A DNA stretch of 64,000 nt, from assembly GCA_018436595.1 (NCBI GenBank), contig JAHDLC010000026.1, positions 1 to 64,000 on the forward strand, read 5' to 3'. Positions 13,787 to 54,852 of the stretch are shown here, one piece after another. How positions within the stretch are numbered: the stretch's first letter is position 1; every line of letters begins with the position of its first letter. The notes under the pieces are model-generated. The model was not told the origin of the DNA and did not search any database. It saw only the letters and a program-made list of their open reading frames with translations. This stretch comes from Synergistaceae bacterium. GTDB lineage: Bacteria > Synergistota > Synergistia > Synergistales > Aminobacteriaceae. Both the position numbers and the translations under genes were made by a program.

Positions 13787-13824
13787 ATCATGTTCCGTTC
13801 CCGTCGGAAAGGGGGGTGAACACA

Positions 13825-15078
13825 GTGTATATTCCACGGGCCGCCGAAGATACGGTCAGAAAGATCGCCGATACATTTCCGGTCCTGCTTGTGACCGGCC
13901 CCCGGCAGGTGGGCAAAACGACCCTTCTCGAACGCCTCGCGGAACCGGAGCGCAAAATTGTGACGCTGGACGACCCGGACGTGCGGCACCTTGCGGGAAA
14001 CGACCCGGCGCTCTTTCTGCAGCGGTACACTCCTCCCGTGCTGATCGACGAGATCCAGTACGCTCCCGGCCTGCTCCCATATATAAAGATGGCCGCGGAC
14101 CGCTCGGGACGAAACGGCGATTTCTGGCTGACCGGTTCCCAATCCTTCGTGATGATGAAAAACGTCGGCGAATCCCTGGCGGGGCGCGTGGGCATTGTCA
14201 GGCTTCCGGGACTGTCCACCAGCGAGATCCTGGGCGTTCCTTCGAGGCCCTTCACCACGGACCCCGAGGCCCTCTCAAAGCGGCTGGGGGAAGTGAAGAA
14301 ACTCGGCCTGAACGAGCTGTACGGACGCATATTCCGGGGCTCCATGCCGAGACTGCACGCCGACGAGAGGGTCGACTGGGAGACCTATTACCGGTCCTAC
14401 GTGGACACCTACCTCAAGCGGGACATCAGGGACCTCACCCAGGTGGCGGACGAGATGGCCTTCTACAATTTCATGACCGTCGCGGCGGCCAGGACGGCCC
14501 GGCCGGTGGTCTACGAGGAGCTGGCCAGGGAAAGCGGCGTTTCGCCGCCCACGGCGAAAAAATGGCTCTCCATTCTCGTTTCGTCCGATATCGCAGCGGT
14601 TGTGCAGCCCTATTCAAACAATATTCTGAAGCGGGTAACCAAAATGCCCCTGCTCCACTTCCTGGATACTGGACTCTGCGCCTACCTGCTGAAGTGGAGC
14701 AACCCGGAGGCGCTGGAACGGGGAGCCATGTCGGGGGCGTTTTTTGAAACCTACGTTTTCTCGGAGGTGTACAAGAGTTTCCTGAACGCCGGAAAGGATC
14801 CTCCCCTGTACTGGTACCGCGATAAAGAGAAGAGAGAGATCGACTTCCTTATCTTCGAGAACGGCACCCTCTCCCCCGTGGAGGTCAAAAAATCGGCATC
14901 CCCGGGAAAAGAGGCTGTGAAACACTTCCGGGCCCTTGATCCCCTCGCCGGACGGGGAAAACCGGGCGAACCGGAGGGCATGAACCTCCGGATAGGGAAC
15001 GGCGCCGTCGTCTGTATGGCAAATGACCTGCTTCCCCTCGATCAGAAGAACTGGTATGTACCGGCCTGGCTGATCTGA
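13825..15078 (+). CDS. AAA+ ATPase with DUF4143 C-terminal domain
   Basis: About 417 residues. The N-terminus begins VYIPRAAEDTVRK and carries a P-loop (GPRQVGKTTLL, about residues 26-36), a Walker B (VLIDEIQYAP) and a sensor segment (FWLTGSQSF). The middle is a winged-helix-like region (VVYEELARESGVSPPTAKKWL). The C-terminus is the DUF4143 domain, with YWYRDKEKREIDFLIF and PVEVKKSASPGK resembling a PD-(D/E)xK nuclease core. These ATPases are common, patchily distributed, and often suspected of being toxin-like or mobile. A GTG at 13825 sits 8 bases after a G-run and is preferred. The GTG at 13816 is the alternative. The palindrome at 13750 is its likely control site. Confidence 0.88.
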   Translation: MYIPRAAEDTVRKIADTFPVLLVTGPRQVGKTTLLERLAEPERKIVTLDDPDVRHLAGNDPALFLQRYTPPVLIDEIQYAPGLLPYIKMAADRSGRNGDFWLTGSQSFVMMKNVGESLAGRVGIVRLPGLSTSEILGVPSRPFTTDPEALSKRLGEVKKLGLNELYGRIFRGSMPRLHADERVDWETYYRSYVDTYLKRDIRDLTQVADEMAFYNFMTVAAARTARPVVYEELARESGVSPPTAKKWLSILVSSDIAAVVQPYSNNILKRVTKMPLLHFLDTGLCAYLLKWSNPEALERGAMSGAFFETYVFSEVYKSFLNAGKDPPLYWYRDKEKREIDFLIFENGTLSPVEVKKSASPGKEAVKHFRALDPLAGRGKPGEPEGMNLRIGNGAVVCMANDLLPLDQKNWYVPAWLI

Positions 15079-41230: not shown

Positions 41231-42169
41231 TCAGCTCAGCGACGCCAGGAAATACCCGACGACGATGGACACAGCCCAGAGAAGCCCCCCGAAGAGCATA
41301 CCCCCCGCTCCCGCCTTTTTCACCACGGAACGGTGGAGACCGAACCCCACCATGTAGAGGGCCGCGGCCATGAACACCTTCCCCGCCGAGGCGAGGCTTT
41401 TGAAGAGGCCCGGGAAGGGAAGCACCGATGCGGCGGCCGACGCGAGAAGAAAGAGGATGATGAAGAGGGGCACCGAGAGTTTTCCCTTTTCTCCCTGCCG
41501 GAGGGAGAGGACAAAGACGATGGGGGTGATCCACAGGGTCCGGGTGAGCTTCATGATGGTGGCCGTGGAGAGGGACGCGTCCCCGAGAAAGGCGGCGGCC
41601 CCCACCACGGAACTCGTGTCGTGGATGCTGAGGGCGCACCAGATGCCGTACTGTTCAGGAGAAAGAGAGACTATTTCGGCCAGCAGCGGAAAGGCGAAGA
41701 GGGCCACGGTGTTGAGCAGAAAGACCACGCCCATGGCGACCCCGATCTCTTCGTCCCGGGCCTTCATCACCGAGGAGACGGCGGCTATGGCGCTGCCGCC
41801 GCAGATGGAGGTACCGAAGGTGATGAGTTTCATGGTATCCCCGTCGAGGCGGAAGAACCGGAGCAGGAAATACCCCAGAGAGATGATCACGCCGAGGCTC
41901 ACCGCCGTCTGCCAGAATCCCTGCCCGCCCACGGAGATCACCTGCCCGATGTTCAGGCCGAACCCGAAGAGGACCACCGCCGTGTTGAGGGCGAGCTTCC
42001 GCATTTTCCCGAGGCCTGAAGGAGCCGCCGACGGTACGGTGTTGCTCACCGCCGCGCCGAGAAGCAGGGCAATGCCCACCGCCCAGGTTTTCGTGGCGGG
42101 CAGGAGGGCCAGAGCCACCACGACGGCGAGAAAGAGAAGAAACGGGACGTTCGTTCGTTTCAGTTCCAA
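41231..42169 (-). CDS. YeiH/Cons_hypoth698 family transporter
   Basis: A 312-residue protein with about nine to ten transmembrane helices. It has the family motifs LLGAAVSNTVP, GFGLNIGQVISVGGQG, FGTSICGGSAIAAVSSVMKA and WCALSIHDTSSVVGAAAF. Members are annotated as putative sulfate or sulfite exporters, mainly from YeiH and TauZ-type context. It begins 6 bases after the cysteine-desulfhydrase-type gene. That pairing suggests it exports a sulfur product, but transport has not been shown for this type. The ATG follows a plausible ribosome site inside the end of the upstream gene. Confidence 0.85.
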   Translation of the reverse strand: MELKRTNVPFLLFLAVVVALALLPATKTWAVGIALLLGAAVSNTVPSAAPSGLGKMRKLALNTAVVLFGFGLNIGQVISVGGQGFWQTAVSLGVIISLGYFLLRFFRLDGDTMKLITFGTSICGGSAIAAVSSVMKARDEEIGVAMGVVFLLNTVALFAFPLLAEIVSLSPEQYGIWCALSIHDTSSVVGAAAFLGDASLSTATIMKLTRTLWITPIVFVLSLRQGEKGKLSVPLFIILFLLASAAASVLPFPGLFKSLASAGKVFMAAALYMVGFGLHRSVVKKAGAGGMLFGGLLWAVSIVVGYFLASLS

Positions 42170-42175
42170 AAGTGA

Positions 42176-43201
42176 CTACCTCCGCCCGTCCTCCGGAAAC
42201 AGTTCCGGATCGAAATACTTCTGGTAGTGGAAGAGGGCGGGCACTCCCCCTGTGTGGAGGAAGAGAACCCGTTCCCCCTTTTTGCAGAATCCCTGCCCGA
42301 TAAGGTCAAGCATTCCGGCGAAGGCCTTTCCGGTATACACGGGATCGAGCAGGATGGATTCCATCCGGGACAGCAGGACCACCGTCTTCGTCATGGCGGG
42401 GGTAGGCAGGGAATACCCTTCGCCCACGTAGCCGTCGAAGCACTGGATGAGGCCGCCGGGGAGAGGTTCTTCGATCCCGAGAAGGGCGGCCGTCTCGCGG
42501 GCGACCTTCTCCACGAGAGGAACCTGCAGCGAGTTCGGACGGCTGATGTTGATTCCCGCGAGGGGAATTCCCGAACGGTTTGCCCAGAGTCCCACGGCCA
42601 GGCCCGCATGGGTGCCGGAGCTGCCGCTGGTGGTAAAGACCCTGTCGAAGGAAACGCCCTTCCGGAAAGACTGGGAGAGAATCTCCTCGGCGCAGGCCAC
42701 GTAGCCCAGGGCTCCCACGGCGTTTGATCCGCCGCCGGGAATGATGTAGGGTTTCCTGCCCGACGCCCTGAGTTCCGCCGCTGTCTTTTCCATTTCGGCG
42801 GTCATGTCGGCTCCCGCGGGAACCACCCGGATGGAGTCCACTCCCATGAGCTGGAAGAGGAACATGTTTCCCGATGCTCTGTCGGAATAGGTGCCGGGGA
42901 CCCGCTCCTCGATGAGAAAGTGGCATTCCATGCCCTCTTTGCGGGCTGCGGCGAGGGTGAGACGGCAGTGGTTCGACTGGGGGGCGCCGCAGGTGATGAC
43001 GGCGTCAGATCCCTTCTCCAGGGCATCGGCCATGAGGAATTCGAGCTTCCTGGTCTTGTTGCCCCCGGGGAAGAACCCCAGAAAATCATCTCTTTTGATC
43101 CATATCTCGGGGCCGTCAAGATAAGCGGACAGCCTGTCGAGCCTTTCCAGGGGCGTTTCTCCTTCGGTGTACCTGCGGCGGGGAAAACGGGCGAGATTCA
43201 C
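42176..43201 (-). CDS. PLP-dependent D-cysteine desulfhydrase / ACC-deaminase-type enzyme
   Basis: A 341-residue fold-type II PLP enzyme. The PLP lysine lies in FPGGNKTRKLEF (Lys49). The phosphate-binding loop is TTSGSSGTHAGLAVGL, and the substrate strand TCGAPQSNHCRLTL contains the conserved Ser-Asn-His. The family includes D-cysteine desulfhydrase (pyruvate, ammonia and H2S from D-cysteine) and ACC deaminase. The loss of ACC-specific features is not checkable here. Together with the downstream YeiH transporter it suggests a sulfur amino-acid unit. Confidence 0.85.
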   Translation of the reverse strand: MNLARFPRRRYTEGETPLERLDRLSAYLDGPEIWIKRDDFLGFFPGGNKTRKLEFLMADALEKGSDAVITCGAPQSNHCRLTLAAARKEGMECHFLIEERVPGTYSDRASGNMFLFQLMGVDSIRVVPAGADMTAEMEKTAAELRASGRKPYIIPGGGSNAVGALGYVACAEEILSQSFRKGVSFDRVFTTSGSSGTHAGLAVGLWANRSGIPLAGINISRPNSLQVPLVEKVARETAALLGIEEPLPGGLIQCFDGYVGEGYSLPTPAMTKTVVLLSRMESILLDPVYTGKAFAGMLDLIGQGFCKKGERVLFLHTGGVPALFHYQKYFDPELFPEDGRR

Positions 43202-43263: not shown

Positions 43264-43302
43264 AAAAAGAAAAACGTCCCTCCCGGACAGCCGGGAGAGA
43301 CG
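43264..43302 (-). terminator. Rho-independent terminator of the SSB-like gene
   Basis: A 12-bp stem with one mismatch (43275-43286 with 43291-43302), a 4-base loop, and on the minus strand a T-rich run (43264-43274). It ends the unit that begins with the keto-acid decarboxylase operon or at least the SSB-like gene at 43328. Confidence 0.82.
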
Positions 43303-43327
43303 CCGAACGATGCTCGTACAGGAGGAG

Positions 43328-43630
43328 CTAGGCCGCCCCTTCCTCCAGGGTTTCCGCGAGGATGTACATCTCGCCGCTTCCGCTGGAGGTCTGAAGCCGG
43401 CCCGTGATCCGCACCGGGGAGCCTTCGCCCTTTCCGCGGAGCCATTCCTGAAGGGGGGCATCAAAAACCCGGACGGGGAGGAAACTCGTCCGCTCCACGC
43501 CGTCATACCCGACGCTGGGATGCTTCAGGGAAAATCTCAGGTAGACGCCGTTCCGGTTTCTTCCGGCCATGTCGCCCTTGGGAAGGTGGATCGAGCCGGT
43601 GACCGTGACAGAATTCTCGAAGTTCAACAA
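43328..43630 (-). CDS. Small stand-alone SSB-like OB-fold protein, copy 1
   Basis: A 100-residue protein with the single-strand-DNA-binding OB pattern: an opening strand ENSVTVTGSIHL, then a FLPVRVFDAPLQEWL helix-strand, then GSPVRITGRLQTSSGSGEMYIL. It lacks the acidic C-terminal tail of true SSB. It is a paralogue of the gene at 49536, with identical GSGEMYI and matching PVR-x-x-G cores. It starts at a TTG (or a second TTG next codon) with AAGGAG 8 bases upstream. It follows the opu-type operon by 108 bases and ends in a terminator. The function is unknown. Confidence 0.7.
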   Translation of the reverse strand: MLNFENSVTVTGSIHLPKGDMAGRNRNGVYLRFSLKHPSVGYDGVERTSFLPVRVFDAPLQEWLRGKGEGSPVRITGRLQTSSGSGEMYILAETLEEGAA

Positions 43631-43738: not shown

Positions 43739-44644
43739 CTATTGAATGAACCCCTTCTTCCGGAGGAAGGCGGCGGCGATGTCCTCGGGATCCTCTCCCT
43801 CGTCGAAGGCCAGGTTCATGGCCGCCATGGCCTGCTCGTCGATGGCTCCGCTGATCTTCTCCACCACGGGGACGAGGCCGGGGTATTTTTCCGCGAGGGG
43901 TATGGGCAGGACGAAAGCGGCGCTGTAGTCGGGGAAGAAACTTTTGTCGTCTTCCAGAAGGACAAGGTTCAGCTTCTTTATCCGGGAGTCGGTGGAGTAG
44001 GCCGCGATGACGTCCACTTCGTCCTGGGCGAGGGCCATGTACATCATGGCGTACTGCATGGGAAGCACGTCCCTGAAGGTGATGCCGTAGCGCTCCGACC
44101 AGCCGGGGTATCCGTCCAGCCGGGTGTCGAAGTTTTCATCGCCGCCCAGTTTCCATTCCGGGCCATGGTCCGCCAGGTCGGAGGCCTTTTTGAGACCGTA
44201 TTTTTCGGCCCTCTCCGCCTTCACGGCCATGACGTAGGTGTTGTTGAACCCCACCGGGCGGGTCCAGGTCATGTTGAAGTTCTTCTCGAAGCCTTCCTTC
44301 ACCATTGCGAAGGTTTCGTCCGAAGGCTTCGACTCGCCCTCGTACCGGAGAATTCCCGTGAGCTGGGTCCCCGTCCACGAGGGATAGAGGTCGATCTCGT
44401 CCGCGGCCATGGCCTGGTGGAGCACGGCGGAACCGGCGAACTCGGTGTTGATGGTGGTATCGAGGCCCGTGTGCCCGTCGATGAGGAGCTTGGCCATCCA
44501 GGCGAGGATGATCGTCTCGTTCACGTTCTGCGAGGCGATGCGGATCGTCCCCCTGTAGTCCATGGGGTTGCCGGCCGCGAAGGCGGCGCCTGCGGATCCT
44601 GCGAAGAGAACAAGGGCGAGAACCAGTGCTGTCAGTTTTTTCAT
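43739..44644 (-). CDS. OpuAC-type substrate-binding protein (quaternary-amine class)
   Basis: A 301-residue exported protein with a signal peptide (residues 1-24) and the OpuAC fold. It has TIRIASQNVNETIILAWMAK, TINTEFAGSAVLHQAMA, DLYPSWTGTQL, and the late DEVDVIAAYSTDSRIKKLN and KSFFPDYSAAFVLP segments found in glycine betaine, choline and carnitine binding proteins. The aromatic cage residues cannot be confirmed by eye. It is the last gene of a run that includes an aminotransferase and a decarboxylase, so the ligand may be an amine rather than betaine. Confidence 0.9.
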   Translation of the reverse strand: MKKLTALVLALVLFAGSAGAAFAAGNPMDYRGTIRIASQNVNETIILAWMAKLLIDGHTGLDTTINTEFAGSAVLHQAMAADEIDLYPSWTGTQLTGILRYEGESKPSDETFAMVKEGFEKNFNMTWTRPVGFNNTYVMAVKAERAEKYGLKKASDLADHGPEWKLGGDENFDTRLDGYPGWSERYGITFRDVLPMQYAMMYMALAQDEVDVIAAYSTDSRIKKLNLVLLEDDKSFFPDYSAAFVLPIPLAEKYPGLVPVVEKISGAIDEQAMAAMNLAFDEGEDPEDIAAAFLRKKGFIQ

Positions 44645-44673
44645 GGTGTCACTCTCCTTTTTTGAAATTCGTT

Positions 44674-45372
44674 TCAGTCGGTGTCATCCGCCGCCCCGTG
44701 CCTTGCGGCGAGCCGTACCGCCCGGGCGGAGGGGTTGAAATAATCCTGGGCCCTCTTGAGAATCCAGTCGGCGAAGAGGGCGAGCAGGGTCGCCGGTATG
44801 GCGCCCGCGAGAATGATCTCGTTCCTGATGGAGGAAAGGCCCGAGAAGATAAGTCTCCCCAGCCCGCCGCCGCCGATGGCCGAGGCAAGGGTTGCCGTGC
44901 CGATGGTCCAGACCATGGCCACCCGGATGCCCGCCACGAGGACGGGACGGGCCAGGGGAAGCTGGACTTTCAGCAGAATCTGGAAGTCGGTCATCCCCAT
45001 CCCCCGGGCTGCCTGCACGTAGGATCTCGGAACGCTCCGGATGCCCGTGTAGGTGTTCTGGATCACCGGGAGCATGGCGTACAGGAAGAGGGCACAGACG
45101 GCGTTGTCGTTGCCGATGCCGAAGACGAAAATGAGGAACCCCAGGAGCGCCAGGCTCGGAATGGTCTGGAACACGTTGGCGAGCCCGATGACGTAGGGAG
45201 CCGCCTTTTCGTTCCTCGTGAGGTATATTCCCAGGGGAACGCAGACCATGACCGTAATGCCCACGGCGATGAGGGAGATCATGATGTGTTCTCCGGTGAG
45301 GTTCAGGATGCGCATGTAGTTTCTTCCCACGTAGGTGATGAAAAGATCCCACAGGGGGCGCTGCTCCATCAT
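44674..45372 (-). CDS. ABC transporter permease (OpuCB-type)
   Basis: A 232-residue inner-membrane protein with six transmembrane segments. It has the permease loop (SYVQAARGMGMTDFQILLKVQLPLARPV, with the EAA-like contact) and the IGGGGLGRLIF segment of OpuCB/OpuCD. It forms the channel of the glycine-betaine-type uptake system. Its start overlaps the stop of the ATPase gene by 4 bases (ATGA), and the binding protein follows after 29 bases. Only one permease gene is present, so it presumably works as a homodimer. Confidence 0.9.
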   Translation of the reverse strand: MMEQRPLWDLFITYVGRNYMRILNLTGEHIMISLIAVGITVMVCVPLGIYLTRNEKAAPYVIGLANVFQTIPSLALLGFLIFVFGIGNDNAVCALFLYAMLPVIQNTYTGIRSVPRSYVQAARGMGMTDFQILLKVQLPLARPVLVAGIRVAMVWTIGTATLASAIGGGGLGRLIFSGLSSIRNEIILAGAIPATLLALFADWILKRAQDYFNPSARAVRLAARHGAADDTD

Positions 45373-46538
45373 GACTGCTTCCCCTCCTCCCTGCCGCTTC
45401 TGAGCCGTTCCACCGCCAGGCGGGCAAGGGCGCCGGACGTGATGACGCCCACAAAGCGCTCGTCCTCACCGACGACGGGGATGGAAATATCCCTGTCGGC
45501 GAGCATCTCCGCCGCGTCCCGGAGGGTGGCGTTCCCCGCGTAGAGCTTTCTTTCCCGGTAGATGCCCTTCATTACCGTCTCACCTGCGGACGCCGCCCGG
45601 CGCAGCCGTCCGAGAAGGGCCATGCCCAGCCACTGGCCGCTTTTGGGATCCACCACCTGGATGAACTCCCGGTCGTTCTCCTCCATGCGTTCCAGCACGC
45701 CGGCGGCCCCTTCCCAGGGAGCGGCCGTTCCCCAGGGCTCCTCCACGATGGACTCCGCCGGGTCGTCGGGGGACATGCGGGAGAGCCTGTCCTCGCCGAT
45801 GAAGCTCCGGACGAAGTCGTTTTTCGGGGAATACTGAATGTCCTCCGCCGAGCCCTCCTGCTCCACCCTCCCCTTCCGCAGGATCACGATCCTGTCGGAG
45901 ATGCGGATGGCCTCCCCCATGTCGTGGGTGACAAAGACAATGGTTTTCTTCAGATTCTTCTGGAGGGAGACCAGTTCGTTCTGGAGCACTTCCCTGCTTA
46001 TGGGATCCAGGGCGCCGAAGGGTTCGTCCATGAGGATGACCTTCGGGTCCGACGCCAGGGCCCGGAGCACGCCGATCCGCTGCTTCTGTCCTCCGCTGAG
46101 CTGATCGGGAAGACGGAACCGGTATTTTTCCGGCGGAAGCCCCGCCATGGCGAGAAGCTCGTCCACCCTGGACCGGATTTTCTTCGCCGGCCACCCCAGC
46201 AGGGAGGGCACAACGGCGATATTCTCCGACACCGTCATGTGAGGGAACAGGGCAATCTCCTGCACCACGTACCCGATGCGCCTCCGGAGCTCCACGGGAT
46301 CGCACCGGAGAATATCCTCCCCCTCCACGGTGATCCTTCCCGAGGTGGGATCCTCCAGCCTGTTGATCATCTTGAGGGTGGTTGTCTTTCCGCAGCCCGA
46401 CGGACCGATGAGACTGACCAGCCCGCCGCTCCGTATTTCCAGGTCCAGGCGGTCCACGGCATTGGTGCCGTCGGGATAGGTCTTCGTCACCTCTTTGAAA
46501 ACCACGCCGCCCTGTGTACCTGGCAGATCTCCGTTCAT
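45369..46538 (-). CDS. ABC transporter ATP-binding protein with CBS domains (OpuCA/ProV-type)
   Basis: A 389-residue ATPase. The P-loop is GPSGCGKTT (45-53), with a Q-loop, the LSGGQKQRIGVLRALASDPK signature and MDEPFGALD Walker B. It has VTHDMGEAIRISDRIVILRKG after the switch His. The C-terminal 130 residues contain tandem CBS domains, as in OpuCA, where they sense ionic strength. It overlaps the aminotransferase gene upstream and the permease downstream by 4 bases each, so all are coupled. Confidence 0.93.
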   Translation of the reverse strand: MNGDLPGTQGGVVFKEVTKTYPDGTNAVDRLDLEIRSGGLVSLIGPSGCGKTTTLKMINRLEDPTSGRITVEGEDILRCDPVELRRRIGYVVQEIALFPHMTVSENIAVVPSLLGWPAKKIRSRVDELLAMAGLPPEKYRFRLPDQLSGGQKQRIGVLRALASDPKVILMDEPFGALDPISREVLQNELVSLQKNLKKTIVFVTHDMGEAIRISDRIVILRKGRVEQEGSAEDIQYSPKNDFVRSFIGEDRLSRMSPDDPAESIVEEPWGTAAPWEGAAGVLERMEENDREFIQVVDPKSGQWLGMALLGRLRRAASAGETVMKGIYRERKLYAGNATLRDAAEMLADRDISIPVVGEDERFVGVITSGALARLAVERLRSGREEGKQS

Positions 46539-47650
46539 TCCCGTTCCCCCTTTCTCTCCGCGAGCACCTGTCCGAGAGCTTCCAGGAAGAAGGAATTGTC
46601 TTCCGCCGTTCCGACGGTCACCCGGATGGAGCGGGGAAATCCCCAGCCACCGCAGGGACGGACGATGACACCCCGCTCCAGGAGCATACGGGACACCTCC
46701 GAAGCGTCCAGGGGGAGGGTGAAGAAAATGAAATTGGTGCTCGACGGCAGGACCCGGAGCCCCATGGCCCCAAGGGAGCGGGACACCCGCTCCCGCTCCG
46801 AGACGATGGCGTCCAGGGCCTTCCGGAAGGCTTCGCCGTCCTCCCGCAGGGCCGCCGAGGCTCCCGCGATGGCCGTCCGGTTGGCGTTGAAGGGCTCACT
46901 CACAGTGTCGATGACCGTGACCAGCTCCGGACGGGCGAGGGCGTAGCCGATCCGTGCCCCGGCGAGGCCCCAGGCCTTGGAGAAGGTCCTCACCGCCACG
47001 AGATTCCGCCTTTCTTCGAGGAGAGCCTTCGTGCCGGGCATGCTTCCGGGGGCGGCGAACTCGCCGTAGGCTTCGTCGAGGACAACCCACGTCCCCTCGG
47101 GGAGGCCGCGAACGAAGCCCTCCACCTTTTCGGGAGGCAGGGCCAGCCCCGTGGGGTTGTTGGGGTTGTTCAGCCAGACGAGCTTCGTTTTGCCGGTTAT
47201 CGCCTTTCTCATTTCCTCAAGGTCCATGGAGAAATCGTCTCCGAGGGGAATTTCCCGGAGGACGGCCCCCATGACGAGGGATATTTCCCGGTAGAGTCCG
47301 TAGGTTCCCTTCGGCAGGACGACCTCGTCGCCCGGGTCGAGGAAGACCTTCCCCAGGGTCTGGAGCATGCCCTCCGCCCCGTGGGACAGGGCGACCCATT
47401 CGGGTTCCAGGCCGGACTGCCGGGCGATGAGCCCTTTCAGCTCGCGGAAGGAAACGTCGGGATAGGTGTTCAGCCTGACGATCTCCTCGGCCATGGCCGC
47501 CCGGGCCGCCGGGAAGGGGCCCCAGGGGTTCTCGTTGGACCCCAGCTTCACTATTCTCTCGAGGCTGAGCTCCCGCCGGACCTCCTCCACGGTTTTGCCC
47601 GGGACATAGGGGGAGGCCGATAAAACCGCCTTTCTCACTCCGGGGATCAT
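46535..47650 (-). CDS. HisC-like PLP aminotransferase in an amine-catabolism operon
   Basis: A 371-residue fold-type I aminotransferase with the HisC pattern: LGSNENPWGP, the AYGEF strand after LDE, and the PLP lysine in RTFSKAWGLAGARIGY (Lys225). HisC acts on histidinol phosphate, but several close relatives act on arginine, tyrosine or other amines. The operon has no histidine genes. It overlaps the TPP decarboxylase gene by 4 bases (ATGA at 47647-47650) and the ABC ATPase by 4. This supports a catabolic role in producing a 2-oxo acid for the decarboxylase. Confidence 0.85.
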   Translation of the reverse strand: MIPGVRKAVLSASPYVPGKTVEEVRRELSLERIVKLGSNENPWGPFPAARAAMAEEIVRLNTYPDVSFRELKGLIARQSGLEPEWVALSHGAEGMLQTLGKVFLDPGDEVVLPKGTYGLYREISLVMGAVLREIPLGDDFSMDLEEMRKAITGKTKLVWLNNPNNPTGLALPPEKVEGFVRGLPEGTWVVLDEAYGEFAAPGSMPGTKALLEERRNLVAVRTFSKAWGLAGARIGYALARPELVTVIDTVSEPFNANRTAIAGASAALREDGEAFRKALDAIVSERERVSRSLGAMGLRVLPSSTNFIFFTLPLDASEVSRMLLERGVIVRPCGGWGFPRSIRVTVGTAEDNSFFLEALGQVLAERKGERE

Positions 47651-49248
47651 ACCCTCGCCCCCTTCCGGACCTTCACTTCGATGATGGACGGTGTGGGGAA
47701 TTGAAAGGCCGACTCCAGCGCCTGGCCGATACCAGCGCCCCCTTCGGGGGCGAAATAGGGGATCCCGTAGGCCCCCGCCAGGGCACGGAAATCGGGATTC
47801 CAGTGATCCACGGCGATCCTGGGACCGCCGTTCCTGTCCTGGGTACGGCGGATTTCGCCGAAACCCCCGTCGTTCCAGAGCACCACGGGAAGGCAGATCT
47901 TTTCCTGCACGCCCACCGCAAGCTCGGGAAGGGTGAACTGGAATCCTCCGTCTCCTGTGAGGACCGCAACCCTGCGGTCCGGGAAGGCGCACATTGTCCC
48001 GAGGCCGCCCGGAAGAGCCGCCCCGAGGGTGCCGAACCCGACGGGATGGAGGAACCTCCTGGGCCGGGAGCAGGGATATTCGCTGATGGCGCAGTACGCC
48101 GCCCCCGTCATGTCGGCCCAGAGGACGCCCTCGCCGCCGAGAGCCCCCGCAAGGGCCGAGACGGTGTCACGCAGCAGGGGAAGCTCTTCTTCCACGCCGA
48201 GAACGGAACCCAGGGCCTCCCGGCATTCACCGAGGATGGCCGTCCTGCCGGGGAAGGACACGCCGCCCCTGTCGTTCACCGCTCCCGCAAGCATGGGGAC
48301 CACGTCCTCGCACCTGCCCCCGAGGAACAGTCCTCTCCGGGACGAGGCGAAACCGCCGTCCGTGTCCACCGAGATCAACCCGTCCGGGAAGGGAAACTCC
48401 TCTTCCCACATGTCCGGAGGGGAAAGTTCGGTTCCCAGGGCGAGGATACAGTCCGAATTCCGCAGAAGCTCCTTCACCGCCGGGAAATGAAGCCGTGCCC
48501 CGAGGCAGAGGGGATGGTCGTCCGGAAGGATTCCCTTTCCCGCCGAGGTCAGCACCACAGGAGCGGAGAGCTTCTCCGCAAGGAGCCTCACCGCTTCAGC
48601 CGCTCCCGCGGCACCCCCGCCGGCGATGATGACGGGCGACCGGGCGGCTGACAGGCTCCCGGCAGCTTCACCGGCAAGCCCTTCGTGGAGAGAGGGTCCC
48701 TCCCGGCGCACCGGTTCACCGGGGGGCATGCCGCAGGGTTCGTCGAGATAGTCCAGGGGAATCTCAACGTGCACGGGCCCCGGCCGTCCTTCGACGGAGA
48801 GCCGGAGGGCCCGTTCCACAAGATGGGGAATCTCCTCCGGGGACGATGCCCGGAAGGAACCCTTGGTGACCGATGAGGACATGACGGTGGAGTCCCGAAG
48901 TTCGTGAAGGTAGCCGGAACGGCCTGAAAGAAACCGCGAGGGGATCTGGGTGGTTATGGCCACCATGGGAACTGAGTCGTGAAATGCCTGGCCGAGGGGC
49001 GTGAGGATATTGGTGAGTCCGGGTCCGGTGATGGCGAGAACCACTCCCGGTGTTCCCGTGGATTTGCCCCATCCGTAGGCCATAAACCCGGCCCCCTGTT
49101 CGTGGCGGGTGGTGATGTGCCTGATGGGGCCGGATGAGAGACCTTCATAAAGAGAAAGGTTGTGAATGCCCGGTATGCCGAAGAGAACGGAAATGTTCAT
49201 GCGCTCCAGGACCCGGACGGCTGTTCTTCCGCCGGTATTCCCTGCCAT
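47647..49248 (-). CDS. TPP-dependent 2-oxo-acid decarboxylase, AruI/acetolactate-synthase-like
   Basis: A 533-residue three-domain enzyme. The catalytic Glu50 lies in HITTRHEQGAGFMAYG. A central Rossmann-like domain follows (AARSPVIIAGGGAAG). The TPP-magnesium motif is GDGG (432-435) with the following NDGGFGE. The opening and the TNILTPLGQAFHDSVPMV and YLHELRDSTV segments match 5-guanidino-2-oxopentanoate decarboxylase (AruI) more than biosynthetic IlvB, and no IlvN regulatory gene is nearby. It should convert a 2-oxo acid to an aldehyde and CO2. It is first in a five-gene run with an AGGAGG site before the ATG. The substrate is unproven. Confidence 0.82.
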   Translation of the reverse strand: MAGNTGGRTAVRVLERMNISVLFGIPGIHNLSLYEGLSSGPIRHITTRHEQGAGFMAYGWGKSTGTPGVVLAITGPGLTNILTPLGQAFHDSVPMVAITTQIPSRFLSGRSGYLHELRDSTVMSSSVTKGSFRASSPEEIPHLVERALRLSVEGRPGPVHVEIPLDYLDEPCGMPPGEPVRREGPSLHEGLAGEAAGSLSAARSPVIIAGGGAAGAAEAVRLLAEKLSAPVVLTSAGKGILPDDHPLCLGARLHFPAVKELLRNSDCILALGTELSPPDMWEEEFPFPDGLISVDTDGGFASSRRGLFLGGRCEDVVPMLAGAVNDRGGVSFPGRTAILGECREALGSVLGVEEELPLLRDTVSALAGALGGEGVLWADMTGAAYCAISEYPCSRPRRFLHPVGFGTLGAALPGGLGTMCAFPDRRVAVLTGDGGFQFTLPELAVGVQEKICLPVVLWNDGGFGEIRRTQDRNGGPRIAVDHWNPDFRALAGAYGIPYFAPEGGAGIGQALESAFQFPTPSIIEVKVRKGARV

Positions 49249-49297
49249 TGAATCGACCTCCTGATGATAAATTTTCTTGCGCTGTACCAAACGGGAA

Positions 49298-49315
49298 GCC
49301 CCCCTTCCGGGGGGC
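49298..49315. terminator. GC-only hairpin upstream of the decarboxylase operon
   Basis: Arms GCCCCCC (49298-49304) and GGGGGGC (49309-49315) with loop TTCC. No T-run follows on either strand, so a terminator call is weak. It lies in the 287-base gap between the SSB-like gene and the decarboxylase, which otherwise shows no feature I could support. Confidence 0.35.
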
Positions 49316-49535
49316 ACTAGATGAAAACGGTACTGAAGAATGGGAAAAAGACGATGCTGGCGACGGAGTTTTCGGCAAAAAAAGGGCAGAAGCGAATCAG
49401 GGGATTGGAAAAACCGGTTTGTTCCGGCACCGGGATCAGCCGGCTGCTGTCCCTGATGCCGCACACCATCTGCACGCACTGCAATGCGCGTCCCGAAGCA
49501 ACCTTTCGGCCCGCGGGCCGGAAACCTGGAAGTAC

Positions 49536-49829
49536 TTAAGCCAGCGCTTCGATGGCGGTCACGTTGATGTACATCTCGCCGCTTCCCAGGGATGAGCGCA
49601 CATCCCCCTGCACTCGTACAGGCACCCCTTCCTTCAGGCTCTTCATTTCTTCCTGGATGCGGGGATCATAAATCCTGGCGAGAAGGAAGTCCTTTCTGAC
49701 GCTCCCGTCCGTCCCCGGCGTGTCCTGGCGCACCGAAAAGGGCATGTATTTCTTCGGCTTGCCGGCGCTGGCCTCGACGCGGACCAGATGGAGCGTCCCC
49801 GAAACCGTCACGATGTTCTCCGTCAGCAT
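49536..49829 (-). CDS. Small stand-alone SSB-like OB-fold protein, copy 2
   Basis: A 97-residue protein with the same OB-fold plan as the gene at 43328: MLTENIVTVSGTLHL, FLLARIYDPRIQEEM, then GVPVRVQGDVRSSLGSGEMYI. It lacks the SSB acidic tail. The start at 49829 aligns with the paralogue start. Upstream ATGs are in frame, but their GGGAG spacing is poor. It lies between the aldehyde oxidoreductase and the decarboxylase operon, all on the minus strand. An SSB-related role such as replication, competence or phage response is possible but unproven. Confidence 0.65.
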   Translation of the reverse strand: MLTENIVTVSGTLHLVRVEASAGKPKKYMPFSVRQDTPGTDGSVRKDFLLARIYDPRIQEEMKSLKEGVPVRVQGDVRSSLGSGEMYINVTAIEALA

Positions 49830-49984
49830 CTGGACATCAACTCCCATTCCCTGAAAGTGTGTGTTGCCTCTGCCTGGAAACCTCGTCATCATCCTGTTCT
49901 TTACATAACGCGTTCATATTTTACCTTTTTTTTCCCCGTTTGTCTCCCGCCTTTTCCGTGCAAATGTTTTGTGCATCCTGTCTT

Positions 49985-51859
49985 CTATCCCTCAATCCCC
50001 AGCCGAAGGAGGGTTTCCTCCAGGGGGGCGCCGGTTTTCCTGTCCCATCCCCTGGCGTCGTAATATTCGTCCAGCATGAGGTCGTAGTTCCGGACGGCGC
50101 TTTCCGGACTGCCGGCATATTTCCCGAAGGCAGGCAGGGAGCGCGCCCTGTCCGGAAGACGGTCCTGCTCTCTTCCGAAGCCCTCCCGGCAGTTGAAAAG
50201 TCGCTGCAGGTTCGTCACCCGCTCCGCCGCCCCCAGAAGCTCCTCCCCCGTCACCTTCCACCCTGTCAGCGCCGAGAGCATGGCCGCATATTCCTTCGGG
50301 GTTATGCCCACGTACATGTAAAACTTGCAGGTTCCGAGGATATCGGGGAGGGCCCCTCCGTCCTGCAGGATCCTGGTCGCCTCGCCCTTTCCTTCCTCGT
50401 CCCACCGGCCGAACTGATTCGGGTCGGGCAGGCCGAAGGGGATCAGCCCGAAATCGGTGTGGGAGCAGTCGTACGCCACCGTTTCAAGGGGATGGATGTG
50501 GCACATGCCCCGGTTGCCCGTGCCGTAGCTGACGGCAAGGGTCTTGCCGGACCGGGGGTCGTGGCAGGGGCCCTCCAGCCCCTTCACGTGGACGGCGAAC
50601 CGCTCCGCCCCTCCGCCGATTGTTTCCGCCGCCCGCCTGACGCCGTCGGCGAGAATATCACCGATGCCTTCCCTGAGGGCAATCATCTCCACGAGCCGGG
50701 GAAGAACGGCGCCGTTCCCCCAGGAGAGATCCAGGCCCCCCCCTGCCTCCAGCGAGACCAGGCCCTTCTCCGCGCACTCGAACAGGAAGCCGATGACCGC
50801 TCCCGTGGAGATTGTATCGATGCCGAGCTCGTTGCAGAGGTACCCGCAGTGCACTGCACAATCCACGTCCTCGTTGAGGACATAGGCGGTGAAGGATCCC
50901 ACGGTCTCGTATTCTCCGCCGTCGTGTTCGGGGGTCTTCCAGGGACCGTTCTCCACGCGGACCTTCCGCCCGCACTTCATGGGGCATCCCTTGTAGCAGC
51001 CGGTGGAGGCCACCTGGTTTTTCCCGAAAAAATGGGAGGAGACAGCCTCACCCTTCCCCCAGGAATTGGACTGCCAGTTTTTCGTGGGAAGGTCCCCGAT
51101 CCGGTCGGAATTCTCGTATCCTCCCATGGTGCCGAGTTCCGTAAACCCAGGCGTGTTGGGATTTTCCTTCACGATTCCATGGGCGGCGCGCACCTCCCGC
51201 ATCCAGGCTGCGGGGTCGGCGGGGGCAATTCTTCCCGTCCCCTTCACAGAAAGGGCTGCCACGTTTTTCGAACCGAGGACGGCTCCCGCGCCAATGCGCC
51301 CGGCGGCCCTGTGCCCAACCATGACGGAAGCGAAGAGCACGCCTTTTTCTCCCGCAGGACCGATGGTGAGGATGGAATGGTCTTCAAGGCCATCCAGTTC
51401 CCTCACGAGCTTCTCTCTTTCCAGCACCTTCCTTCCGGCGAGAAAGGCTCCGTCCCGGAGCTCCACGGTGCCGTCGGTGATGACGATGTGCAGGGGGCGG
51501 TCCGATACGCCGGAGAGCACGACGAAGTCGTACCCCGCCCGCTTCAGCTCAGGTCCGAAGTCGCACCCGACCCTGGCCTCGCCCCATCCTCCGGTGAGGG
51601 GGGACTTGCAGCAGACCGACAGGCTTCCGCCGCCCGGAACGACATTGTCCGTGAGAGGACCGGTGGCGAGTATAAACAGGTTTTCCGGGCCCAGGGGGTC
51701 CGCTCCGGGAGGCACCCCGTCGAAAAGGAGGCGGGCGGCATACCCCGTTCCTCCAAGCCAGGGCCGTATGGTTTCAGCGGAAAGGTCCTTCCGGGAAATC
51801 CCGCCGGACGTGAGGTCGATCCACAAAACGGTGCCGGCGTAGCCGAACAGTTTTTCCAT
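49985..51859 (-). CDS. aor: Aldehyde:ferredoxin oxidoreductase (tungsten/molybdopterin enzyme)
   Basis: A 624-residue protein of the AOR family. The N-terminal domain (RPWLGGTGYAARLLFDGVPPG) binds the pterin. The [4Fe-4S] ligands are Cys288, Cys292 and Cys296 in CYKGCPMKC plus Cys511 (LGTCKFYM). Other matches include GYENSDRIGDLPTKNWQSN and GTGNRGMCHIHPLE. It oxidises aldehydes to acids, reducing ferredoxin with a tungsten cofactor. The residue pattern fits the general AOR type but not a defined substrate. It lies upstream of a keto-acid decarboxylase that releases aldehydes, which suggests one pathway. Confidence 0.92.
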   Translation of the reverse strand: MEKLFGYAGTVLWIDLTSGGISRKDLSAETIRPWLGGTGYAARLLFDGVPPGADPLGPENLFILATGPLTDNVVPGGGSLSVCCKSPLTGGWGEARVGCDFGPELKRAGYDFVVLSGVSDRPLHIVITDGTVELRDGAFLAGRKVLEREKLVRELDGLEDHSILTIGPAGEKGVLFASVMVGHRAAGRIGAGAVLGSKNVAALSVKGTGRIAPADPAAWMREVRAAHGIVKENPNTPGFTELGTMGGYENSDRIGDLPTKNWQSNSWGKGEAVSSHFFGKNQVASTGCYKGCPMKCGRKVRVENGPWKTPEHDGGEYETVGSFTAYVLNEDVDCAVHCGYLCNELGIDTISTGAVIGFLFECAEKGLVSLEAGGGLDLSWGNGAVLPRLVEMIALREGIGDILADGVRRAAETIGGGAERFAVHVKGLEGPCHDPRSGKTLAVSYGTGNRGMCHIHPLETVAYDCSHTDFGLIPFGLPDPNQFGRWDEEGKGEATRILQDGGALPDILGTCKFYMYVGITPKEYAAMLSALTGWKVTGEELLGAAERVTNLQRLFNCREGFGREQDRLPDRARSLPAFGKYAGSPESAVRNYDLMLDEYYDARGWDRKTGAPLEETLLRLGIEG

Positions 51860-52680: not shown

Positions 52681-54852
52681 ATGGTGAATCGTTCAGGATT
52701 TTTCCGTGCGGCACTGCTCTTTCTTCTCTTCTTCCTGGCAACGGGTTCCTGGAGCCCGGTCCTTGCCCAGGATGATGCCACAACCCACATAGAGCTCATC
52801 CTGGACGCTTCGGGGAGCATGTGGGCAAAGCTCGGGGGGTCCACCCGGATCGAGGTGGCGAAGGACGCCCTGGGCAAAATCATCGACGACCTGTCGGAGC
52901 GGAAAGGGATCGCCGTAGGACTGCGGGTCTACGGTCACAGGACAAACGACTGCAAGGACACGAAGCTGGAGATTCCCATCGGTCCCATGGACGAAAAGAA
53001 AATGAAGGCCTTCATCGGGAAGATCAAGCCCAAGGGGAAGACCCCCATCGCCTACTCCCTCCAGGAGGCGGCGAAGGACTTCCGGAAAGACTTCACCGGC
53101 AGCAAAGTGATCATCCTCGTCACTGACGGCCTTGAAAGCTGCAACGGGGATCCCTGTGCGGCGGCGAAGGCCCTGGCGGAGAAGGGAATCGTCTCGAAGA
53201 TCCACGTCGTGGGCTTCGGAATGGACAAAAAATCCGTCTCCCAGCTCGAATGCATCGTGAAACCCTCAGGGGGACTGCTCCTGGAGGCGAACAGCGCCGC
53301 CGAGCTTGCGAAGGCCTTCGACACCATAGTGAAAACTGCCCTCGATACGAACCTGGAGGTCACGGGACTTGACGGGAAAGGAAAGCCCGTGGAGATGTCG
53401 GTCTCCGTTCTGCAGGAAGGGGATGAAGTCCTCTCCGAGAAGGGGCAGACTGTAAAGGCGAACCTCCCCGAGGGAAGTTACCTCGTGCGGGCGACAGCGA
53501 CGGAGACAGGCGAAGAGATCTTCTTCGAGGGTGTGGACCTTGTGGAGGACAAGCTCACCTCCCTGAAAGCCGTGTTTTCCATTGCAAGGATTCGGGTCAG
53601 GGCACTGGACAGCGCCGGGAAGCCCGTCCGTGCGGAGTGGCAAATATTCCGGAAGGACGCTCCGGAAGAACCGGTGGTGCGCTTCTCCGGCGCCGATTGG
53701 ACCGAGAAAGCCCTCTCACCCGGGGAATACACCCTCAAGGCCCACCACAAGGACACCAAGGTCACCCTGACGGCGGACGCAGCCCCCGGGAACGGGGAGA
53801 CCGCCGCGGTGGAACTTGTTTTTGCCCAGGGGAAGCTGCTCATTTCGGGCCTCGACTCCAACGGCAAGCCGGTCTACACAGACTCCTACGTTTACAAAGC
53901 CCCCTTCGACAGGGACAATCCCGACGAGGCGGGGCGCGACGGCGGCAACAAACATGAGTATTCCCTTGTCCCCGGGACCTACGACATCCTCGTCAGGGAC
54001 CACAACACAAAGGTCGAACAGTGGATCAGGGACGTGGTCATCGAAGGAGGGAAGACCGTCCGGAAGGAAGTCTCCTTCGCCCAGGGGAAGCTGATCATTT
54101 CGGGCCTCGACTCCAACGGCAAGCCGCTCTACACCGACTCTTACGTTTACAAAGCCCCCTTCGACAGGGACAATCCCGACGAGGCGGGGCGTGACGGCGG
54201 CAACAGCCACGAATATTCCCTCGTCCCCGGGACCTACGACATCCTGGTGAGGGACGGCAACACCAAGGTCGAGCAGTGGATCAGGGACGTGGTCATCGAA
54301 GGAGGGAAGACCGTCCGGAAGGAAGTCTCCTTCTCCCAGGGAACGGTCCGGCTGACGGTGAAGGGATTCGAAGGGAAACCAGTCTATTTCTTCACAGAGA
54401 TTTTCCTGTCCCCGGCCGAAGAAAACGACGAATTCGTCCACTCGGACAGCGGCGAAAACGAGGTATCCTTCCCCATCGTCCCGGGCACCTACGATGTGAA
54501 AGTGTGGACCGAGGAGCCCAGGGCAGAGCTGTGGGAAAAGGGAATGGAAGTGAAGGCCGGAGCGACGGCCGCAAAATCCTTCGCTTTTCCTGCCGCCCGG
54601 GTCCGGATAACGCCTCCCAAAAAGGGGACGGAATGGACCTATATCTTCGTGGACGTCTTCCCCCACCCCGCCGGAGAGGACGATGAAGCGGCAGTCTCCG
54701 AAGCAGGCGCTGAAGAGCACATCCAGTTCTTCCTCGTTCCCGGAACCTACGATTTCCGTATTCGCGACGAAGAGGAGCGGGAGACCTGGATGCGGGGAAT
54801 TGAACTGGCGGCGGACGAAAAGTTTGCCGGAGAAGTGAAGTTCGAGGACTGA
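52681..54852 (+). CDS. Secreted von Willebrand factor A-domain protein with duplicated module
   Basis: A 723-residue exported protein with a signal peptide (hydrophobic stretch about 9-29, ending in VLAQ). A VWA domain (about 35-220) carries the metal-ion-dependent adhesion motif: DASGSMW (residues 41-47), a later conserved Thr and TDGLESC. The rest is a chain of beta-sandwich-like modules that share a PGTYD(I/V) motif. Two are almost identical (residues 382-466 and 467-551). The pattern suggests surface adhesion or a protein-complex scaffold. GGGGAGG lies 7 bases before the ATG. Confidence 0.85.
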   Translation: MVNRSGFFRAALLFLLFFLATGSWSPVLAQDDATTHIELILDASGSMWAKLGGSTRIEVAKDALGKIIDDLSERKGIAVGLRVYGHRTNDCKDTKLEIPIGPMDEKKMKAFIGKIKPKGKTPIAYSLQEAAKDFRKDFTGSKVIILVTDGLESCNGDPCAAAKALAEKGIVSKIHVVGFGMDKKSVSQLECIVKPSGGLLLEANSAAELAKAFDTIVKTALDTNLEVTGLDGKGKPVEMSVSVLQEGDEVLSEKGQTVKANLPEGSYLVRATATETGEEIFFEGVDLVEDKLTSLKAVFSIARIRVRALDSAGKPVRAEWQIFRKDAPEEPVVRFSGADWTEKALSPGEYTLKAHHKDTKVTLTADAAPGNGETAAVELVFAQGKLLISGLDSNGKPVYTDSYVYKAPFDRDNPDEAGRDGGNKHEYSLVPGTYDILVRDHNTKVEQWIRDVVIEGGKTVRKEVSFAQGKLIISGLDSNGKPLYTDSYVYKAPFDRDNPDEAGRDGGNSHEYSLVPGTYDILVRDGNTKVEQWIRDVVIEGGKTVRKEVSFSQGTVRLTVKGFEGKPVYFFTEIFLSPAEENDEFVHSDSGENEVSFPIVPGTYDVKVWTEEPRAELWEKGMEVKAGATAAKSFAFPAARVRITPPKKGTEWTYIFVDVFPHPAGEDDEAAVSEAGAEEHIQFFLVPGTYDFRIRDEEERETWMRGIELAADEKFAGEVKFED
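53824..54333 (+). repeat. Tandem 255-bp duplication inside the VWA gene
   Basis: Two in-frame copies, 53824-54078 and 54079-54333, encode 85-residue modules differing at four residues (Leu/Ile, Val/Leu, Lys/Ser, His/Gly). The DNA is also very similar. The exact junction and the near-identity point to a recent tandem duplication that may still vary in number. Confidence 0.85.

Follow-up and report, generated by a model that had tools for sequence, protein, structure and literature searches.

A conserved transporter, aminotransferase and decarboxylase cassette of anaerobic bacteria with a proposed role in the import and conversion of a cationic amino acid

Why would a transporter of the quaternary-amine type be encoded together with enzymes that act on amino acids, and which compound would they share? 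These questions are raised by a five-gene run in a Synergistaceae bacterium (assembly GCA_018436595.1, contig JAHDLC010000026.1, positions 1 to 64,000; this whole stretch of 64,000 nucleotides is referred to as the window). The run encodes a thiamine pyrophosphate (TPP)-dependent 2-oxo acid decarboxylase (DC), a HisC-like aminotransferase (AT), and the ATPase, permease and substrate-binding protein (SBP) of an OpuC-type ATP-binding cassette (ABC) transporter, and an aldehyde:ferredoxin oxidoreductase (AOR) gene lies upstream. A preliminary description of the sequence had read these genes as a pathway for amine import, transamination, decarboxylation and aldehyde oxidation, with arginine as the first-choice substrate and trimethyllysine as an alternative. 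We propose that the cassette imports and catabolises, or otherwise converts, one cationic α-amino acid under anaerobic conditions, with a probability of about 0.72, a figure for the type of pathway and not for trimethyllysine.

Six-frame searches of relatives identified DC orthologues in a number of families within the order, and the surrounding stretches (mostly 15–20 kb) were read; in a wider scan, the DC alignment was compared with 84,980 species genomes. The relatives' loci carried the identical five genes in the same order and on one strand at ∼42–79% identity, and close kinship does not explain a gene order retained at such low identity. Counted as distinct genomes, this order was present in 14 Synergistota, 4 Bacillota (L052, L055, L056 and L060) and 5 Spirochaetota (L066, L069, L070, L096 and L097). 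The Bacillota with the cassette include Sedimentibacter acidaminivorans, Fusibacter paucivorans and uncultured Clostridia, and three further Bacillota-type loci (L059, L061 and L142) are rearranged, with the transport genes ahead of DC and AT but all still linked. Among 188 Synergistota genomes, DC orthologues occurred in 23, SBP orthologues in 19 and both in 18, compared with 2.3 expected (Fisher P ∼1e-19, a value inflated by shared ancestry and uncorrected for it). The gene arrangement is thus far beyond chance, and the co-occurrence across genomes by which the preliminary description had proposed to check the unit was confirmed, both in these counts and in the order kept in three phyla. Few genomes beyond Synergistota carry the cassette: it was present in 2 of 391 in the class of Sedimentibacter and in 2 of 393 in Spirochaetota, the genome on which each search was centred being counted in both cases. 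Such a distribution suggests horizontal spread of the cassette among the three phyla. In three Acetomicrobium loci (L042, L043 and L064), a DC of the cassette clade stands alone, with no AT or transporter genes nearby; a recoded internal TGA considered for the Acetomicrobium DC was rejected, as this TGA sits at the end of the open reading frame (ORF).

The family of the neighbouring aldehyde-oxidising enzyme differs between cassettes. In most Synergistota cassettes it is an AOR, positioned upstream of DC in the family of the window genome and directly after the SBP gene in three other families (f5, f6 and f8; 54–56% identity to the window AOR). The window AOR matches AFOR_N (210 bits) and AFOR_C (384 bits) and has the cluster cysteines, which in this protein and five other cassette-linked AORs (L036, L038, L040, L045 and L048) are spaced CX3CX3C and not in the usual CX2CX3C, a spacing that marks an AOR subfamily. 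Outside Synergistota, an aldehyde dehydrogenase (ALDH) gene follows the cassette in 9 of the 12 Bacillota and Spirochaetota loci (52–57% identity to the Sedimentibacter ALDH), including L142, where ATPase, permease, SBP, DC, AT and ALDH form a single uninterrupted run, while a different AOR follows in L060. Betaine-aldehyde dehydrogenase (BADH; TIGR01804) was the top model for four of five ALDHs scanned (480–549 bits, cut-off 669), and the cassette ALDHs retain the catalytic Cys and Glu motifs. Because two unrelated aldehyde oxidases replace each other at one place, the comparison gives strong evidence that the predicted pathway yields an aldehyde, which is the expected product of a 2-oxo acid decarboxylase acting on the AT product. 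The exchange of AOR for ALDH strongly supports a sequence of import, transamination, decarboxylation and aldehyde oxidation, and with the recurrence in three phyla it leaves the pathway logic of the preliminary description well supported. In one Bacillota locus (L055, 10731–12125), a putrescine/PigE-like class III aminotransferase gene follows SBP, in the place where an aldehyde oxidase would stand.

The analysis shows directly which genes are present, how they are conserved and linked, to which families they belong and that AOR and ALDH alternate; from these observations we infer the enzyme steps and their order. The SBP, permease and ATPase would take up a quaternary-ammonium compound carrying a free α-amino acid group, AT would convert it to the 2-oxo acid, and DC would decarboxylate this to an aldehyde one carbon shorter. 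AOR, or the BADH-like ALDH in most other phyla, would then oxidise the aldehyde to an acid with ferredoxin or NAD(P) as the acceptor. The combination of a putative pocket that has a cation cage and an Asp/Arg pair with enzymes for transamination, 2-oxo acid decarboxylation and aldehyde oxidation leads us to propose an amino acid that is cationic and has a free α-amine.

The transporter components were assigned as follows. The ATPase belongs to the proV/OpuCA subfamily (TIGR01186, 354 bits, cut-off 327) and has a CBS match, the best NCBIfam match of the permease is ProW (101 bits), and the SBP matches OpuAC (PF04069, 181 bits). A profile search of the PDB with the SBP returned OpuBC/OpuCC, nicotine/acetylcholine sensor proteins, ProX and EgtUC. 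In agreement, the nearest solved structures to an AlphaFold model of the SBP (pLDDT 83, pTM 0.81) in a fold search were quaternary-amine binders, with a target-normalised Foldseek TM-score of 0.93 to Lmo1422.

In EgtUC, an aromatic cage is formed by F293, Y341, Y419 and Y443 on N339, and the ligand carboxylate is held by K242, T296 and R379 (PMC9732360). By sequence alignment to EgtUC, on which all residue assignments are based, the SBP equivalents are W90, Y137, Y216, Y240 and N135 for the cage, and Q39, T93 and R175 for the carboxylate contacts. We compared 33 cassette rows (28 distinct proteins, since five genomes are present twice; identity at least 47%) with 14 comparators. The cage and its Asn base are kept across the cassette rows (Y216 is Phe in two), R175 is kept in 31 of 33, and N171, W182 and S183 are invariant. 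Position 173 is acidic in 32 of 33 rows, and also in L142, but in none of the comparators; likewise, the cassette residues at 171, 173, 182 and 183 are absent from all 14, and position 90 is always Tyr or Phe in these proteins and never Trp. The EgtU pocket signature F293/G244 is replaced by W90 and V41. N171, D173 and R175 alternate along a stretch that matches the EgtUC ligand contacts E375, N377 and R379, and since this Asp adjoins R175 within a ligand-contacting stretch, it is plausible that D173, beside the carboxylate-binding Arg, provides a site for the α-ammonium group. The predicted pocket would therefore suit an amino acid that bears both a quaternary ammonium group and a free amine. 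This transporter type is also linked to amino acid breakdown in Martelella, where an OpuAC-type binding protein (L151) is encoded between histidine ammonia-lyase-like and ornithine cyclodeaminase-like genes.

Trimethyllysine is released from digested protein. N6-trimethyllysine, the speculative alternative of the preliminary description, is tentatively the best candidate substrate and would fit the SBP pocket best in the alignment, while its role as the substrate stays a prediction. The pathway would run from trimethyllysine through 2-oxo-6-trimethylaminohexanoate and 5-trimethylaminopentanal to delta-valerobetaine (trimethylaminovaleric acid, TMAVA). The cassette may then represent a new oxygen-independent route from trimethyllysine import to delta-valerobetaine, apparently transferred among anaerobes of three phyla and with AOR and ALDH interchangeable at the last step, a proposal that we regard as possible but less likely than not. 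The other candidate substrates are S-methylmethionine, arginine and methylarginine. MTTB-family demethylases were absent from the window genome and from 15 of the 17 other cassette genomes and present in the remaining two, which rules out MTTB demethylation as a conserved next step. As these demethylases are mostly missing, the product may leave the cell, accumulate as an osmolyte or serve another purpose. The literature searched held nothing direct on the cassette or on trimethyllysine ABC transporters, and no oxygen-independent route from trimethyllysine to delta-valerobetaine.

Several observations weigh against this interpretation. In EgtUC and AfProX, the residues corresponding to T93 and R175 hold carboxylates near the quaternary nitrogen, and because the carboxylate of trimethyllysine is six carbons away, the pocket may favour shorter ligands, for example S-methylmethionine. 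D173 may do no more than pair with R175, and the SBP model has low confidence at residues 171–200, for which reason a structure-based reading of the pocket was dropped. The ALDH scores do not reach the curated BADH cut-off, and this ALDH group would also be suited to 4-guanidinobutyraldehyde. L036 lacks AT beside DC, and no aldehyde-oxidising gene is adjacent in L035, L039, L055 and L056. At the window locus itself, AOR lies upstream, as the preliminary description had noted, and on the same strand, but is not directly adjacent: a small ORF resembling OB-fold single-stranded DNA-binding proteins (SSB-like; 49536–49826) and ∼290 bases separate it from DC, and it may thus be transcribed apart from the cassette.

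The five cassette genes form one minus-strand run (Table 1), and their coordinates and Pfam and NCBIfam assignments bear out the unit, families and 4-base overlaps given in the preliminary description. The overlaps occur at three of the four junctions, the permease and SBP genes being separated by a 29-base gap. DC starts with ATG preceded by the ribosome-binding site GGAGGT, and upstream of the cassette no riboswitch or other known RNA scored near the gathering threshold. The SSB-like ORF upstream of DC has a paralogue (∼41–43% identity) on the minus strand at 43328–43630, so that one stands on each side of the cassette, and both are kept in relatives; a promoter and terminator scan yielded only a possible terminator, downstream of this second ORF (∼43273–43304). 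Directly downstream of the cassette (41231–43201, minus strand) lie genes for a CuyA-type cysteate sulfo-lyase (482 bits, cut-off 450) and a YeiH-family putative exporter, a pair that likely functions in cysteate desulfonation and sulfite/sulfate export. On the plus strand, 52681–54852 encodes a protein of the von Willebrand type; its internal repeats are nearly identical and may vary in number among relatives.

Table 1. Cassette genes and the upstream AOR gene in the window
Feature	Position	Strand	Remarks
DC: TPP-dependent 2-oxo acid decarboxylase, AruI-like	47647-49248	-	first cassette gene; three TPP-enzyme domains
AT: HisC-like pyridoxal phosphate (PLP) aminotransferase	46535-47650	-	class I/II; hisC TIGR01141; 4-base overlap with DC
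OpuCA/ProV-type ABC ATPase with C-terminal CBS domain	45369-46538	-	ABC_tran and CBS; 4-base overlap with AT
Permease, single, ProW/OpuCB-type	44674-45372	-	BPD_transp_1; 4-base overlap with ATPase
SBP: OpuAC-type (cluster F-III) binding protein	43739-44644	-	PF04069; PDB profile matches
AOR: aldehyde:ferredoxin oxidoreductase family enzyme	49985-51859	-	AFOR_N and AFOR_C; upstream, proposed last step

The two enzymes named after arginine and histidine pathways suggest other functions for the cassette. AruI (PRK07524) was the nearest NCBIfam model for the window DC (439 bits, under the cut-off of 500) and for all 12 DCs scanned, the best E value (2e-160) implying a score above the cut-off. An anaerobic AruH–AruI transaminase route, by which arginine or methylated arginine would be degraded to 4-guanidinobutyrate or its methylated form, would also agree with the possible acceptance of guanidinobutyraldehyde by the ALDH group, and guanidinium, especially dimethyl-guanidinium, can occupy aromatic cages. 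However, a tree of 90 DC relatives placed every cassette DC in one clade (33 rows, SH-aLRT 100, stem 0.57), outside a sister group of 37 proteobacterial and actinobacterial AruI-type rows; the annotated members of this group are called 5-guanidino-2-oxopentanoate decarboxylase, and the tree rows include no biochemically proven AruI. Four positions are fixed differently in the two groups, including residues 30 and 120, which adjoin the active-site motifs GIPGxH and LHE. Moreover, two plasmid AruI-type genes of Rhodobacteraceae are flanked by a gene for an aminotransferase of another type and by one of the arginine-deiminase family, and one of the two is accompanied by an ABC system of a different type, whereas the cassette combines a HisC-like AT with an SBP nearest to quaternary-ammonium binders. 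These differences weaken arginine as the first-choice substrate, and we consider it an unlikely one. A biosynthetic or fortuitous cluster, with AT as the HisC of histidine synthesis, DC as acetolactate synthase and an ordinary betaine transporter alongside, is very improbable. AT does exceed the hisC cut-off (TIGR01141, 308 bits, cut-off 276.6) and is the only protein of its genome to do so (309 bits), with hisD on another contig; it also keeps the PLP Lys motif and NNPNNPTG. Yet AT is neither the only HisC-like copy nor linked to his genes, and its linkage to transport genes is kept across three phyla. A second HisC-like gene, adjacent to a YerC-like one, was present in each of the three genus members tested, G001 and G002 among them. 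In G002 (L032, ∼13790–14230), an internal deletion has fused the beginning of AT with a mid-gene position of SBP; the junction contains additional sequence that does not align, and DC survives intact as an orphan. Since G002 has lost AT but keeps the other HisC-like gene, AT is probably dispensable for histidine synthesis in this genome, judged by its HisC-like genes. DC scored only 249 bits against the acetolactate synthase model (cut-off 538). The separate clade of DC and the second HisC-like gene thus make arginine, and likewise histidine synthesis, the weaker readings of the cassette.

The remaining alternatives concern the cation and the fate of the product. If the cassette supplied an osmoprotectant, an imported precursor would be converted to a retained betaine, as choline is by OpuB with GbsA/GbsB, which would account for the CBS domain of the OpuC-type transporter, the BADH-like ALDH and the scarcity of MTTB demethylases for further breakdown. 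This seems doubtful, since a ferredoxin-coupled AOR is typical of fermentative amino acid oxidation and the sporadic distribution outside Synergistota is unlike that of a core stress system. Less probable still is the import of S-methylmethionine and its transamination, decarboxylation and aldehyde oxidation to dimethylsulfoniopropionate (DMSP), for osmoprotection or catabolism. This short-chain cation with a free α-amine matches the T93/R175 carboxylate contacts, the cassette steps match DMSP routes from S-methylmethionine, and several Spirochaetota cassettes apparently come from saline sediments, judged by isolate names; but other hosts are sludge- and reservoir-type anaerobes, inspection of the cassette loci by eye revealed no S-methyltransferase, and a cage Trp is without precedent here for a sulfonium. 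The neighbouring CuyA and YeiH genes could indicate cysteate or taurine metabolism, with AT and DC acting on cysteate and sulfopyruvate, but in the loci searched CuyA stands beside the cassette only in the genus of the window genome and the SBP pocket appears built for a cation, making this explanation scarcely credible. The arginine, S-methylmethionine and osmoprotection alternatives differ from the preferred function, the import and conversion of a cationic amino acid, in substrate or role but not in the type of pathway.

If trimethyllysine were confirmed as the substrate, the cassette would be of considerable interest. Delta-valerobetaine that microbes make from trimethyllysine reportedly inhibits carnitine synthesis and acts as an obesogen in mammals. 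The documented bacterial conversion of trimethyllysine to TMAVA proceeds via DavB (lysine 2-monooxygenase) and DavA (PMC8976029, PMC11773067), and a route that includes an oxygenase is a poor fit with the anaerobic gut and sediments. A set of genes that marks an anaerobic route, or any other breakdown of quaternary amino acids without oxygen, would open the question to tests in culture-collection strains. In addition, the cassette suggests that genes with the automatic names HisC, '5-guanidino-2-oxopentanoate decarboxylase' and 'glycine betaine transporter' may all be wrongly annotated where they occur together.

Compared with known systems, the proposed start and end products match those of DavB/DavA, but DavB needs O2 and is followed by an amidase, whereas the cassette has no oxygenase and has its own transport system; lysine 2-monooxygenase and 5-aminovaleramidase are not in the cassette, the part of the genome searched for them. 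The AruH–AruI pathway (with KauB) similarly transaminates a cationic amino acid, decarboxylates it with a TPP enzyme of the same subfamily and oxidises the aldehyde, but the cassette differs in its HisC-like AT, separate DC clade, quaternary-amine ABC transporter, AOR or BADH-like ALDH, and anaerobic hosts. With the OpuC/EgtU/ProX proteins (cluster F-III), it shares the cage and carboxylate residues, the CBS-bearing ATPase and the fold; in contrast, it has Trp at the first cage position, N171, D173, W182 and S183, a single permease and linked enzymes of amino acid degradation. Choline conversion to glycine betaine by OpuB and GbsAB also combines quaternary-amine import with BADH-type oxidation of an aldehyde to a betaine, although the source of the cassette aldehyde would be a transaminated and decarboxylated amino acid and not an alcohol. 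The S-methylmethionine to DMSP routes likewise lead from a cationic amino acid via an aldehyde to a zwitterionic acid, but with the cassette the precursor would be imported and not synthesised. The transamination, decarboxylation and oxidation of a cationic amino acid is thus a known kind of pathway, and what is new in the cassette is its own transporter and its own enzyme clades.

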